Source of the DNA: Luteolibacter sp. Y139
GTDB taxonomy: Bacteria; Verrucomicrobiota; Verrucomicrobiia; Verrucomicrobiales; Akkermansiaceae
Direction of reading: 5' to 3'
DNA length: 64,000 nt
Assembly: GCF_038066715.1 (NCBI RefSeq)
Contig: NZ_JBBUKT010000008.1
Span: forward strand, 124,001-188,000
The notes under the pieces are model-generated. The model was not told where the DNA came from. It made no database searches and was given only the letters and a program-made list of their open reading frames with translations. Of the stretch, positions 25,875-30,271 are shown in pieces (position 1 is the stretch's first letter; every line of letters begins with the position of its first letter). A program made the position numbers and the translations under genes.

Positions 25875-26846
25875 TCACCACGCGATCTCTGCGACCACCG
25901 GCCGGTGATCGGATCCGATGTCGGGGCCGATCCAGCGTTTGCGGCAGTTCATCAGGCCGGGTTTGTCCTTGGCGTCGCGGAACAGGATGTGATCGATCGG
26001 AACGGCCAGCAGCAGGTTGCCGCGCATCCAGGTGCTTCCCGCGCCGTGGCCGAGTGAACTGTCGTTCAGTCCCACGTTCCACAGCGGCTTCATGCCAATG
26101 CTCCAACGCGTGGCATTGAGGTCGCCGGCAACGATGACGGGCAGCGCTTCCTTTGAAACCTCCTCCGCGATCATCCGCAGAAACTCGTTCCGCTCATCGC
26201 TCCAGAACTCGGTGGTTGGCGGCACCGGATGAGCGCCGAAGAAAACGAACTCTCCGCCCGGTCCCTTGAGCCGGGCCTTCAGCAAGGGGAGAGCCAATTG
26301 GCCGCAGGGAATGATCTCTTGGCTGACGATCGGCAGCTTGGAGTAAAACGAAAAGCCGAAGTTGCCCTCCACCGGATGGTCGATGGAATAGGGGTGGCTT
26401 GCCTGAAGCGGGCCCAAGGCCATTGCCCACACGTTGTCCACCTCCGGCAGGAAAATCACGTCGGGATCGGCCTCGTGGATCCACTTGATGGCATCATCGT
26501 AGCGTGTATTGGCGGTGTAGACATTGAAGTTGGCGATTCGAACCGGCGTGCCGACGGCCTTTGATCCACTCCAGATAAAGGACGGAGCCAGCCGCACCAC
26601 GGGAACCACAAGGAATACGGCAGCAAGGGCCGCGAGCCGGAACGACTTCGCAAGGAGCAGCACGATCACCGCGAGTGCGATGAACACCGCATACTGGACT
26701 TGGAAGTGATTGAAGAGATCCAGCTTCCACTGCAACCCGCCGAACAAACCGAGAATCGGAAAGCACCCCACCAGCGCCGCCAGTCGCGCGAGGAATGGCA
26801 GAGGCTTGGGGAGAAGACGTGAGCGCCACTTCATTGCGTTCATCAT
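25875..26846 (-). CDS. Membrane-anchored endonuclease/exonuclease/phosphatase (EEP) protein, copy 1
   Basis: 323 residues from ATG 26846 (an ATG three codons on is possible). Three N-terminal hydrophobic helices are followed by an EEP domain with ANFNVYTANTRYDD, the metal-binding Glu in FLPEVDNVW, HPVPPT, AGDLNATRWS and the terminal GSDHRPVVAEIAW. The Asn, Glu, Asp-x-Asn and Asp-His residues of the family are all present, so it is probably active as a phosphodiesterase, acting outside the membrane. It ends convergently five bases from the isomerase gene. Paralogous to the next gene. Confidence 0.85.
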   Translation of the reverse strand: MMNAMKWRSRLLPKPLPFLARLAALVGCFPILGLFGGLQWKLDLFNHFQVQYAVFIALAVIVLLLAKSFRLAALAAVFLVVPVVRLAPSFIWSGSKAVGTPVRIANFNVYTANTRYDDAIKWIHEADPDVIFLPEVDNVWAMALGPLQASHPYSIDHPVEGNFGFSFYSKLPIVSQEIIPCGQLALPLLKARLKGPGGEFVFFGAHPVPPTTEFWSDERNEFLRMIAEEVSKEALPVIVAGDLNATRWSIGMKPLWNVGLNDSSLGHGAGSTWMRGNLLLAVPIDHILFRDAKDKPGLMNCRKRWIGPDIGSDHRPVVAEIAW

Positions 26847-26887: not shown

Positions 26888-27826
26888 CTACCAGACGAAC
26901 TCAGCGATCACGGGCCGGTGATCCGATCCAAGCGCAGGGCCGATCTCGAAGCGCTGGCAGTCCATGTCCTCGCCGCGATAGAGCAAGCGGTCGATGGGGA
27001 TTGAAATGATCGGATTGCCCCGCATCCAAGTCGCACCGGGTGCTTTTCCATAGGAGGCGTCCCTCAGCGCAGCCTCTCTGAGGGGCTCGAACTTGTGACC
27101 CCAGCGGGTCGCGTTGAAATCTCCTGCGAGAATGACCGGCCCGGAGGTCTTCTTCACCTCGCTGGCAAGGACGGCCATCGTCTCATCGAGTGCTCGTGAC
27201 CAATGCGGTGAAACCGGCGGCAGGGGATGCATAGCGAACACCGTGACGTCTCCATTTGCAGTCGCGACCCGCGCGACTAACAGCGGGAACTCGATGTCGC
27301 TGCAGTGGATGATTTCGTGACTGCGAATGGGCAGCTTCGAATAGAATGCGAAGCCGGTGCCTTCCTCGATGGAGTGGGGATAGTCCTCGTGAAGATGCTC
27401 CAGTGCATCCGCCCACGTCTCCGTCGTTTCCGTGAAGTAGATGAAGTCGGGGTTCGCCTTCTTCACCCAGTCGAGGGTGTCTTGGTAGCGGTCATTCGAA
27501 ACAAACACGTTGAAAGAGGCGACCCGGACCGGAGTGCCGTCGGTTTTCACCGGCTTGGGTGGCAGGTAAGAGGGGACGATGCGGCCGAGCGGGACGAGCA
27601 GCAGCACCAGGCTGGCGATGGCGACCCGGCGGGACTTCATCCAGAACAAGGCGAGCGCCATCAGCGGCAGGGCCAGCGCGTATTGATATTGGAAGTGATT
27701 GAGCAGATCGAGTGGCCAGAAGAAGCCGCCGCCGATCCACCCGATGACCGGCAGGCATCCAGTCGAGACCGCGACCACCGCGAGCAGTGCGCGGAGTTTC
27801 GGGAGCAAGGACGAGTGCCAATCCAT
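26888..27826 (-). CDS. Membrane-anchored EEP protein, copy 2 (tandem paralogue)
   Basis: 312 residues, same layout as copy 1: three N-terminal membrane helices and an EEP domain with ASFNVFVSNDRYQD, IYFTETTETW, MHPLPPVS, AGDFNATRWGH and the end GSDHRPVIAEFVW. The two genes are 41 bases apart and clearly derived from a duplication, with the membrane part and several loops diverged. The metal-binding residues are kept in both. Lipid, nucleic-acid or phosphoester substrates are all possible. Confidence 0.85.
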   Translation of the reverse strand: MDWHSSLLPKLRALLAVVAVSTGCLPVIGWIGGGFFWPLDLLNHFQYQYALALPLMALALFWMKSRRVAIASLVLLLVPLGRIVPSYLPPKPVKTDGTPVRVASFNVFVSNDRYQDTLDWVKKANPDFIYFTETTETWADALEHLHEDYPHSIEEGTGFAFYSKLPIRSHEIIHCSDIEFPLLVARVATANGDVTVFAMHPLPPVSPHWSRALDETMAVLASEVKKTSGPVILAGDFNATRWGHKFEPLREAALRDASYGKAPGATWMRGNPIISIPIDRLLYRGEDMDCQRFEIGPALGSDHRPVIAEFVW

Positions 27827-27920
27827 TACAATGATCCTGTCAGACCGGCCCTCCGGTTACAAACACCCGTATTGCAAGCGCAGGGGAAACGGTTAGAAGG
27901 GAGCCGTTCGTGAGAACGAT

Positions 27921-28085
27921 ACCGTCAGCCGAGTGCACCGGACGTGTTGTCCGGAGCAGCGGGGGAACCAATCCCGACCGACTGTGGCAGGACTATTTCC
28001 TGCCCTCTGGTCTCTGGGGCAAGCGGTGCCTGCGGCACCGGGAGCACGTGGTGGCTCCAGCCCGACAGCTAACCCCGTAGGCGTC
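27921..28085 (+). ncRNA. ydaO/yuaA (cyclic di-AMP) riboswitch
   Basis: The conserved core elements of the ydaO aptamer occur in order: GCCGA (27928-27932), the stem CCGGAC/GTCCGG (27938-27954), GCGGGGGAACC (27959-27969), a variable hairpin GGCAGGA/TCCTGCC (27986-28004), TGGGGCAAG, stem CGGTGCC/GGCACCG (28024-28040), stem GGAGCAC/GTGGCTCC with one bulge (28041-28058), and the hallmark CCCGACAGCTAACCCCGTAG (28061-28080) ending in GGC, which pairs with the first GCC. CGGGG (27960-27964) can pair with CCCCG (28073-28077), as in known structures. The ligand binding residues are not tested. CCCCG could instead pair with CGGGG at 28090-28094, a possible switching stem. It lies on the + strand ahead of a small unknown membrane protein. 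Confidence 0.87.
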
Positions 28086-28172
28086 ACCGCGGGGCGCGGA
28101 TCGTTCGGTCTCCTCTTGTTCGGGGAATCGCCGGAGCCGCCGCCGCTTCGCAATCCCAAGGAAAGAAATGCA

Positions 28173-28208
28173 TCCGGCCCCTGCCTCCCGCAGGAGCAGG
28201 ACCGGACA
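28173..28208 (+). other. Hairpin between riboswitch and ribosome-binding site
   Basis: TCCGG and CCTGC pair with GCAGG and CCGGA (28173-28208), while an alternative smaller hairpin CCTGC-CTCCC-GCAGG uses the same left arm. It has no U tract, lies some 10 bases before the strong AAGGAGA site (28218-28224), and may belong to the riboswitch expression platform acting on translation. Confidence 0.4.
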
Positions 28209-28233
28209 TCCACAGAACAAGGAGACCAATAAC

Positions 28234-28557
28234 ATGAATGCTGACATCTGGTTCAGCGCAGGCGTCACCGTGGCTTCGCTCGCCGCGGTGGCAGTCGCCA
28301 TCCATCGATCTACCGGCACGCGCGGCATTCCGCGCGGCCGTGTGGGAGTCCTCGTGAAAATCCTGTCGGCCGCTCGTTTTCAGCGGTCCGGCGAAGCGCG
28401 TGAGGACTGGGGATGTCGTTTGCAATCCTTCGGTGACGTCGCCTGTGCCTTCGCCGATGCGATGAATGATCGTGGGAATGCGGCGCCGTCGCACACGGAA
28501 GCAGCATCGCGAGGGGGAAGTCATGAACGCCGCCGCCTGGAGCGGGCTCTTCTCTAA
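28234..28557 (+). CDS. Unrecognised small membrane protein under a c-di-AMP riboswitch
   Basis: 107 residues from ATG 28234, chosen because an unusually good ribosome-binding site AAGGAGA (28218-28224) precedes it at 9 bases. One N-terminal membrane helix (FSAGVTVASLAAVAVAI) is followed by a basic cytoplasmic-like region and a charged tail (SHERRRLERALL). I recognise no family. It is the first gene after the ydaO-like riboswitch and is followed by a strong terminator, so it is the main or only target. In other bacteria this riboswitch controls cell-wall hydrolases, potassium and compatible-solute transport, so a role in osmotic or envelope balance is possible but unproven. Confidence 0.55.
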   Translation: MNADIWFSAGVTVASLAAVAVAIHRSTGTRGIPRGRVGVLVKILSAARFQRSGEAREDWGCRLQSFGDVACAFADAMNDRGNAAPSHTEAASRGGSHERRRLERALL

Positions 28558-28587
28558 CAGCATCCCAAGCTCGTTGAGGACAATGTC

Positions 28588-28622
28588 GCCGGGCAGTCTT
28601 TTTGGCTGCCCGGCCTCTTTTT
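28588..28622 (+). terminator. Terminator after the riboswitch-controlled gene
   Basis: CCGGGCAG (28589-28596) pairs with CTGCCCGG (28606-28613) and is followed by CCTCTTTTT. It isolates the riboswitch unit from the next gene. Confidence 0.9.
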
Positions 28623-28699
28623 CCCGGCGATCGTGCCCCGGCTTCCGGCGATAATGCCCGTTGCCGCCCATCGTCTCGTGCCGCGAAGTCTGCGATGCC

Positions 28700-30271
28700 A
28701 TGAACAAGCCCAAGTTCACCACTGTCTGCTTCGCGGTCGTCCTCGCCTTACCCGCGGCTGCCGCACCGAAGTTCGTAACCCTCAGCGCGAACTCCTATCC
28801 CGCCGGAAGTCCAATCACCGCCAACTTCGGCGGCGGTCTGGGAAACAACAATGACTGGATCGGGATCTTTCCCGCCAGCATCACCACGCCGTCCACCGGG
28901 ACCTTTCTCGACTGGCTTTACACGAATGGAACGCAAACTCCGGGCGGGAACCTGAAGAGCGGCAGCGTGACCTTTGCCAATCCCACGCTCGCTCCCGGCA
29001 GCTACAAGGTGTGGTTCCTCGCATCGAATGGCTACACGAAGCTCGCTGGCCCTGCTCAGTTCAGCGTGACGCCTGTCGGTGGCCCGGCTCAGCCGGCGTG
29101 GGTGGTGACGAGCTTCGTGCAACGCCATGCCGTGGCCGGGCAGGCGTATTCAGGAAAGATCCAGGCCTACGCCTTCGATCCCGATCCGGGAGATGCGCTC
29201 ACCTTCTCAAAGGTCTCCGGCCCGGCGTGGCTGCAGGTCTCGACAGCAGGCGTGCTCACGGGAAACCCCGCAGTATCTGATGCCGGTGCCAATACCTTCA
29301 CCGTGCGCGCCACGGACCTGTTAGGCAACTCCAGCATCGCCACGATGTCGGTTCCCGTCTTCCAGGCGGGACAGGAGCACGTCGACGTGTTGCGCGTGAT
29401 GTCTTACAATCTTTGGCATGGCTGGGGCCAGGTGAATCAAGGTGCCACCAAAGGCATCCGCTCCATCATCGAGGCGGACGTGGACATCATCGGCACCCAG
29501 GAGACGGTGGACAATGCCTCGGGCTCGAACGCCTACCGCGTGCAAACCATCGCCGATGAGCTCGGCTGGTACTACAGCCCCACGGGTTCCGGAGACAGCG
29601 GCATCGCGAGCCGCTATCCGATCACCGCGACCTACACCGCTGCCAATGGTGTGGCCAAGGGAGCGCGGGTTCGCCTGTGCAGCAATCCACTGCGCGAGGT
29701 GGTGATCTTCAATACCCATCTCGACTACCTGCACTACGGTCCCTACGAGGCGAAACGTGCCGGCTCGACGAGTGCCAGCGTCCTCGCCGAGGAACTGGCC
29801 TCGCAGCGTGACGAGCAGATCGCGGACATCATGACTGGCCTGTCGAGCCACCTCGCGAATGCGAATGCGGCACCCGTGTTTCTAACAGGAGACTTCAACT
29901 GCCCTTCGCATCTTGATTGGACAGCTGCCAATGCCTCGGCTCACTACGGCAAGGTCGTCCAATGGCCGGCCACGGTGGCGGTCGCCAATGCGGGGATGAC
30001 CGACTCCTTCCGCCAGATCTTTCCCACCCCCCAATCCCAACCGGGAACCACCTGGTCACCGCTCTACAGCAGCCCGGACGAGCCGCATGACCGCATCGAC
30101 TTCGTCTTCCACAAGGGCGGTCCTGCCACGCCAAGCTCAGCGGAGATCTTCACGAATGCCCTGCAGAACCAAGGCTACGTCTACGGCGACAATGTCGATG
30201 CTGCCCGGAACAATACCTGGCCGAGTGACCATGCCTCGGTCGTGGTGACCTTCCAGCTTGCCTGGCCATGA
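28700..30271 (+). CDS. Secreted EEP-family nuclease/phosphatase with N-terminal Ig-like domains
   Basis: 523 residues from ATG 28700 with signal peptide (FTTVCFAVVLALPAAAA). An N-terminal beta domain (NDWIGIFPASI, GSYKVWFLASNGY) and a cadherin-like/putative-Ig domain (AVAGQAYSGKIQAYAFDPD) precede a C-terminal EEP domain from about residue 235: VMSYNLWHGW, GTQETVDN, FNTHLDYLHYGP, LTGDFNCPSHLD and WPSDHASVVV, including all metal and catalytic residues. It is likely an extracellular nuclease or phosphodiesterase for phosphorus or nucleotide scavenging. Third EEP gene in this 5 kb. Confidence 0.85.
   Translation: MNKPKFTTVCFAVVLALPAAAAPKFVTLSANSYPAGSPITANFGGGLGNNNDWIGIFPASITTPSTGTFLDWLYTNGTQTPGGNLKSGSVTFANPTLAPGSYKVWFLASNGYTKLAGPAQFSVTPVGGPAQPAWVVTSFVQRHAVAGQAYSGKIQAYAFDPDPGDALTFSKVSGPAWLQVSTAGVLTGNPAVSDAGANTFTVRATDLLGNSSIATMSVPVFQAGQEHVDVLRVMSYNLWHGWGQVNQGATKGIRSIIEADVDIIGTQETVDNASGSNAYRVQTIADELGWYYSPTGSGDSGIASRYPITATYTAANGVAKGARVRLCSNPLREVVIFNTHLDYLHYGPYEAKRAGSTSASVLAEELASQRDEQIADIMTGLSSHLANANAAPVFLTGDFNCPSHLDWTAANASAHYGKVVQWPATVAVANAGMTDSFRQIFPTPQSQPGTTWSPLYSSPDEPHDRIDFVFHKGGPATPSSAEIFTNALQNQGYVYGDNVDAARNNTWPSDHASVVVTFQLAWP

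Follow-up and report, generated by a model that had tools for sequence, protein, structure and literature searches.

A c-di-AMP riboswitch in the genome of Luteolibacter sp. Y139 very probably belongs to an SPFH/Band 7 gene most of which has been lost here, with the aptamer and its expression platform still under selection and with control exerted most likely on translation. The short open reading frame (ORF) behind the switch is, judged by its sequence, not a new gene but the N-terminal stub of an SPFH gene whose full-length form occupies this position in relatives. The link to c-di-AMP that the locus indicates is with this SPFH family.

The aptamer and its surroundings

The window, i.e. the whole stretch of 64,000 nucleotides that was analyzed, was searched with Rfam cmscan. 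The results showed a match on the plus strand to RF00379 (c-di-AMP, ydaO/yuaA; E 1.2e-6) that exceeded the gathering cut-off, spanned model positions 1–134 of 134, and was the sole Rfam family at gathering threshold in the window. The earlier note had assigned the region to this class from its conserved blocks and had named an Rfam search as a check; the search bore out the class, and the end block quoted there, CCCGACAGCTAACCCCGTAG, was located at 28061–28080, inside the aptamer match. The genome of the window (G000; 7.1 Mb in 31 contigs) gave this single match and no further RF00379 copy at E≤10. A gene for a diadenylate cyclase, which had also been suggested as a check, was found as well: the genome carries one such domain (PF02457, 127.7 bits) in an open frame of 292 amino acids, by which the ligand would presumably be made in the organism. 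With the full aptamer model matched above the cut-off and a cyclase domain in the genome, the locus resembles the known ydaO/yuaA leaders, and the element is, by these matches, a genuine-looking c-di-AMP riboswitch that would be expected to bind its ligand. It sits in the 5′ leader, on the same strand as the ORF that starts at 28234. Near the cyclase gene lies an Acido-Lenti-1 RNA (RF01687, 39.7 bits, cut-off 37; L002 482–527, minus strand), and a second RF01687 RNA was seen in locus L171.

Table 1. Features of the switch locus, in window coordinates
Feature	Position	Strand	Remarks
Promoter-like element	27856..27898	+	TTACAAAC 27857–27864, TTGCAA 27872–27877, TTAGAA 27893–27898; by eye
c-di-AMP aptamer, RF00379	27917..28098	+	42.9 bits, cut-off 38; 1/117 invariant positions changed (28083 A>G)
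Putative anti-Shine–Dalgarno segment	28107..28121	+	GGUCUCC, UC bulge, UUGUUC; predicted duplex with 28215–28227
G+C-rich hairpin between aptamer and ORF	28173..28206	+	Fold of leader; in most of nine single-sequence folds and the consensus, pairs not counted
Ribosome-binding-site side of putative duplex, GAACAAGGAGACC	28215..28227	+	
Stub ORF, 107 amino acids	28234..28557	+	Residues 1–47 (28234–28374), SPFH membrane anchor; residues 48–107, unrelated tail
Tail segment common to the G154 stub	28421..28456	+	29/36 bases
Terminator-like hairpin 3′ of the stub	28588..28614	+	11 pairs, 9 of them G-C; T-rich tail
Next gene: Ig domain and exonuclease/endonuclease/phosphatase	28661..30271	+	Pfam; syntenic neighbor marking the far side of the deletion

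In an alignment of nine genomes, the TTA(C/T)AAAC and TTG parts of the promoter-like element were recognized by eye in all nine; we grade this element as weak because a consensus scan of 27700–28800 listed no sigma-70-like promoter. Terminator-like sites in the same range numbered three, compared with a shuffle mean of 0.7. Three exonuclease/endonuclease/phosphatase genes (PF03372) lie in a row around the switch, at 25875–26846 and 26888–27826 on the minus strand and at 28661–30271 on the plus strand.

The predicted expression platform

No terminator-like site was listed on the plus strand between aptamer and ORF (28098–28234), and an intrinsic terminator was therefore rejected as the platform. 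The predicted duplex between the segment 3′ of the aptamer and the ribosome-binding site consists of 28107–28113 paired with 28221–28227 and 28116–28121 paired with 28215–28220. Its energy of −24.0 kcal/mol is the lowest among the nine genomes, whose cognate values range from −10.1 to −24.0 kcal/mol, and the duplex is also present in the minimum free energy fold of 28099–28262, the energy of which is itself unexceptional (z −1.41; 20 of 200 shuffles as good). Across the nine genomes, cognate pairs had a mean of −16.0 kcal/mol versus −13.5 kcal/mol for permuted ones, and 48 of 5000 permutations overall and 27 of 5000 within the genus were as good as the cognate pairing, in windows that were both picked after the fold of the Y139 leader had been seen. 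The cognate ribosome-binding site was the best partner in only four of the nine rows of the duplex table. Since the segment 3′ of the aptamer can pair with the ribosome-binding site and shows some co-variation, control is probably translational rather than transcriptional.

For riboswitches of the c-di-AMP class, the ligand acts in the OFF direction. The same direction probably applies here by analogy, in agreement with the class member from Dehalobacter, in which c-di-AMP favors termination (PMC9337991). A predicted platform that pairs with the ribosome-binding site would set this leader apart from the members described in PMC9337991, which use termination.

The ORF behind the switch is the stub of an SPFH gene

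The ORF is open from the ATG at 28234 to the stop at 28557, and the ATG is preceded by AAGGAG; the ribosome-binding site that the earlier note had seen is thus present, as is the terminator claimed for the ORF, in the form of a terminator-like hairpin (Table 1). The note had described the product as an unrecognized small membrane protein. This holds insofar as nothing in Pfam, NCBIfam, or PHROGs matched the 107-residue product at E≤1, and no homologue of the stub was matched in phage records. It does not hold for the N-terminal part: a profile of nine relatives matched residues 1–47 (29.9 bits), i.e. an SPFH membrane anchor, and nothing past residue 47.

The switch was found in 7 of 18 genomes of the genus. 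In five of these (G064, G100, G117, G291, and G292) it is followed by a protein of approximately 685–690 residues, the copy of G292 being cut by a contig end. The intact protein starts like MIADLLFSVGVTVAALL and continues VRYIPHRRVGIIEKLWS; the G117 protein is recognized as Band 7/SPFH by Pfam (PF01145, E 2.9e-12), its Band 7 domain lying at residues 292–503. An AlphaFold model of the G117 protein (mean pLDDT 56.2, pTM 0.31) was of too low confidence to serve in a fold search. Behind the switch of the other two genomes stands a short ORF alone, of 107 residues in Y139 and 96 residues in G154. On the G154 ORF the same profile matched residues 1–40 (19.8 bits) and nothing beyond.

The gene at 28661–30271 has its counterpart directly downstream of the complete SPFH gene in two relatives, G117 and G064, and downstream of the stub of G154; DNA similar to it lies behind the SPFH gene of G100, and it was not found in the stretch examined in G291 and G292. 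A full-length SPFH query matched only this locus in the Y139 assembly at E≤10, and no SPFH body was found elsewhere in it. Because the front end and the neighboring flank have been kept and the body between them is missing, we infer that the body of the SPFH gene has been lost in Y139, as it has in G154. The ORF is therefore, at the level of its sequence, a descendant of an SPFH gene without being an SPFH protein, as the Band 7 domain is missing, and the suggestion of a new c-di-AMP-controlled gene is not supported: what remains is a remnant of 47 residues with an unrelated tail. The likeness to SPFH/Band 7 (flotillin-like) proteins consists in the homology of residues 1–47 to the N-terminal anchor of the PF01145 protein of relatives, whereas the stub lacks both the Band 7 domain and the helical C-terminal region. 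Against NCBIfam FloT, the intact protein scores only 9.6 of 700 bits.

Codons have drifted and the aptamer has been kept

Over codons 2–47 (46 codons, Nei–Gojobori, ungapped), dN/dS was 0.15–0.40 in 15 pairs of intact copies, 0.45–0.76 for the Y139 stub against six intact copies, 0.60–1.17 for the G154 stub against six intact copies, and 0.72 between the two stubs. Invariant positions were defined in seven relatives with the intact gene. The results showed that 20 of 72 such positions in codons 2–47 were changed in Y139 and 26 in G154, compared with 0–7 of 72–79 in a leave-one-out control on intact copies; over codons 2–40, the range aligned by the profile in G154, the changes were 15/57 and 14/57, respectively. 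In the aptamer, each of the two stub genomes had one change in 117 invariant positions (Fisher p for codons versus aptamer, 9.4e-9 for Y139 and 8.6e-12 for G154). The leave-one-out values for the aptamers of the five genus members whose SPFH gene is intact were 1/131, 5/135, 0/130, 3/133, and 15/145, the last from G292, indicating that aptamers do vary. In the leader behind the aptamer, 5 of 47 invariant positions were changed in Y139 and 2 of 47 in G154. By these counts, evolution appears to have preserved the switch as the downstream gene eroded. The stub may have come under positive selection and not under relaxed constraint, which would weaken the argument from drift.

If the whole locus were a plain relic in which the aptamer merely decays more slowly, drift at the rate of the codons (28 percent) would predict approximately 32 changes in 117 positions, but one was observed here and one in G154. 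Loss of the switch is common in the genus, since 11 of 18 genomes lack it at E≤1, which favors such a relic. A kept switch that serves nothing nevertheless fits the aptamer counts poorly, and we regard this explanation as quite unlikely.

That the truncation is an assembly artefact is highly improbable. The locus is known from the assembly alone, but it is internal to a contig of 337,960 bases, G154 has the same kind of stub, the drifted codons are unlike the product of a mis-join, and the missing SPFH body does not turn up elsewhere in the genome in the above search with the full-length query.

The stub could also be a working microprotein, in which the old anchor has been joined to a new tail and which is still under c-di-AMP control and evolving fast. 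This agrees with an open frame with a start codon, ribosome-binding site, and anchor kept in two genomes, with maximal 19-residue hydropathy values of 2.08 and 2.78, with the tail segment that both stubs share, and with the retained aptamer and ribosome-binding-site pairing. However, the above dN/dS values, against intact copies as well as between the stubs, indicate little constraint on the protein, an open frame of 107 codons is not rare in G+C-rich DNA, and the tail is not convincingly present in any other of the 18 genus genomes. A working microprotein is on balance somewhat unlikely.

Slightly less probable still, and in our judgment unlikely, is that the function which has been preserved is one of the leader RNA itself (e.g. 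as a regulatory RNA or a sink for c-di-AMP) or the control of a target other than the stub, the ORF being a dying pseudogene. The disparity between aptamer and codons (1/117 versus 20/72 changed) and the promoter-like block, kept by eye, are in line with this, whereas the pairing with the ribosome-binding site has also been kept and points to translation, and a terminator-like site stands between the stub and the next gene. The preferred reading remains that of an SPFH switch which stayed under selection after most of its gene had gone.

The tail and the history of the deletion

One segment is common to both stub tails (local score 22; none of 2000 shuffles scored as high). In a nucleotide tree of PyrG from 18 genomes, G154 joins G064 (0.997) and Y139 joins G117 and G265 (0.879); the PyrG protein tree places G154 with G064 (85/79) and gives the position of Y139 without resolution. 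Descent of both stubs from a single ancestral deletion is thus unsupported by the PyrG trees, and a single simple deletion fails to explain the two stubs, because their genomes share the tail yet are not PyrG neighbors.

Two possible sources of the tail were considered. The Y139 tail resembled the end of a repeat at contig ends (31/42 bases, 0 of 1000 shuffles), a repeat that had been picked from weak genome-wide matches (E 0.0106). A profile of six repeat ends gave the Y139 tail only 1.6 bits, a score exceeded by at least 5 of 4000 shuffles, and the G154 tail showed no match to the repeat by profile, with 308 of 1000 shuffles as good in the pairwise comparison. An insertion-sequence origin is accordingly doubtful. 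An origin from the middle of the SPFH gene is similarly doubtful: the Y139 match, VQRFGDV (at about residues 406–412), was reached by 229 of 300 shuffles, the G154 match was to a different stretch, SAEPAKPGG (2 of 300 shuffles), and in comparisons of DNA the matches were equaled by 17 of 100 and 38 of 100 shuffles.

The repeat itself is probably a mobile element. Contig ends of Y139 (C20, C4, and C6; L070, L071, and L072) carry its end, in which a GGGGACATCGTTT-like motif occurs twice, and related repeat ends occur in 5 of the 18 genus genomes.

Pairing of the switch with SPFH genes in other genomes

In the order sample of 288 genomes, the switch (E≤0.001) was found in 40, in 39 of them above the cut-off, and weak switches may have been missed in this sample since stricter filters were used. 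The SPFH family, counted with the G117 protein as query at E≤1e-20, was found in 41 genomes. Both occurred together in 37, the switch only in three (Y139, G154, and G153), and the SPFH family without the switch in four (G106, G278, G032, and G084). In 34 of the 40 switch genomes, the SPFH gene lies on the same strand behind the switch, starting 315 to about 1,300 bases from the aptamer start (some genes run beyond the sequence examined). The other six comprise the two stub genomes, two in which the contig ends within 270 bases (G182 and G168), G242, and G153. G242 has a permease-like ORF, judged by eye, behind the switch, and its SPFH gene is on another contig. In G153 the 1,671 bases examined show no SPFH gene, and the genome contains no member of the family at 1e-20. 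Family f4 has short ORFs interposed between the switch and the SPFH gene; the one examined (G153) encodes a PH-domain protein (PF10882). As these ORFs intervene, the SPFH gene there need not be the direct target.

In the phylum sample (387 genomes; E≤1e-5), 23 genomes carried the switch, 18 of them outside the order. The main ORF behind each of these 18 switches was picked by eye, one each: amino-acid-permease type in seven, K_trans in three, TrkH in three, and KdpA, Na/H exchanger, citrate synthase, porin BBP2, and SPFH (G367) in one each. Genes of K+-transport or permease type thus stand behind 14 of the 18, and an SPFH gene behind one. The amino-acid-permease-type ORFs are presumably KimA-like. 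The citrate synthase, BBP2 porin, and Na/H exchanger ORFs, at loci L129 (G425), L139 (G443), and L128 (G307), are unusual switch targets. Within the order, then, the switch differs from known ydaO/yuaA leaders in mostly preceding an SPFH gene and not a K+ transporter, and in Y139 this gene is a stub.

A collection of named genomes was searched with an alignment of SPFH proteins (A1), and the best 80 of at least 541 loci, picked by the protein and not by the switch, were analyzed. By title, 11 of the best 80 were of Verrucomicrobia type and the rest mostly of Planctomycetes type. A switch at gathering score lay upstream on the same strand in 40 of the best 80 of at least 541 loci, a share that may be high for the whole family, given that switch loci were the source of all 12 A1 proteins and that the set was confined to their nearest relatives. 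By batch of the best 80, the counts were 11/19, 12/20, 5/20, 11/20, and 1/1; by title, they were 7/11 for the Verrucomicrobia type and 33/69 for the others. Five loci among the misses of the best 80 (L199, L200, L214, L220, and L222) had less than 400 bases upstream. Three loci (L148, L163, and L174) repeat G028, G292, and G291 of the order set, and leaving them out gives 37/77 for this best-scoring part of the at least 541. The record of Chthoniobacter flavus (L146) contains an intact switch–SPFH pair. A switch at gathering score was absent at all ten IMG/VR loci with SPFH relatives (L226–L235).

Other RNAs were seen at some of these loci. A fluoride riboswitch (RF01734, 61.9 bits) lies at 1719–1786 of L217 on the minus strand, opposite to and approximately 320 bases from the c-di-AMP switch before the SPFH gene. 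L234 carries a DUF805b RNA at 1159–1198 (RF02914, 37.9 bits, cut-off 35.6), and L226 two tRNAs.

Discussion

Taken together, the data suggest the following course of events. In relatives, the switch would serve the large, membrane-anchored, flotillin-like SPFH/Band 7 gene before which it stands. Here, most of this gene would have been lost; its membrane anchor survives in a stub of 107 codons that ends in a short unrelated tail, and the aptamer and platform would have remained under selection after the loss. The pairing of 28107–28121 with the ribosome-binding site at 28215–28227 would constitute the closed form of the RNA, and binding of c-di-AMP would shift it between the closed and an open form, high c-di-AMP probably lowering expression. 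The stub would presumably still be made. We put forward more tentatively, as a conjecture with rather less than an even chance, the wider proposition that the c-di-AMP riboswitch controls the SPFH scaffold family in both Verrucomicrobiota and Planctomycetota and that here the switch outlived its gene and was kept for a new task, be it an anchor microprotein or a leader RNA.

The aptamer class is already known, and the putative SPFH target would lie outside K+ transport. c-di-AMP is best known for K+ and osmotic control (PMC6488665, PMC9337991), and Verrucomicrobia are already among the phyla with the motif (PMC6488665). Our search of the open literature, outside which the founding surveys (Block 2010, Nelson 2013) lay, gave co-mentions with flotillin and no work that joins c-di-AMP, or a riboswitch, with the SPFH domain; as those surveys were outside the search, the priority of the SPFH link is not established.

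If the link is true, then in two phyla a membrane-organizing protein would come, through its riboswitch, under the c-di-AMP signal. The stub genomes present a natural case in which a riboswitch is conserved while its gene erodes, and raise the question of what such a switch does after the loss of its gene.
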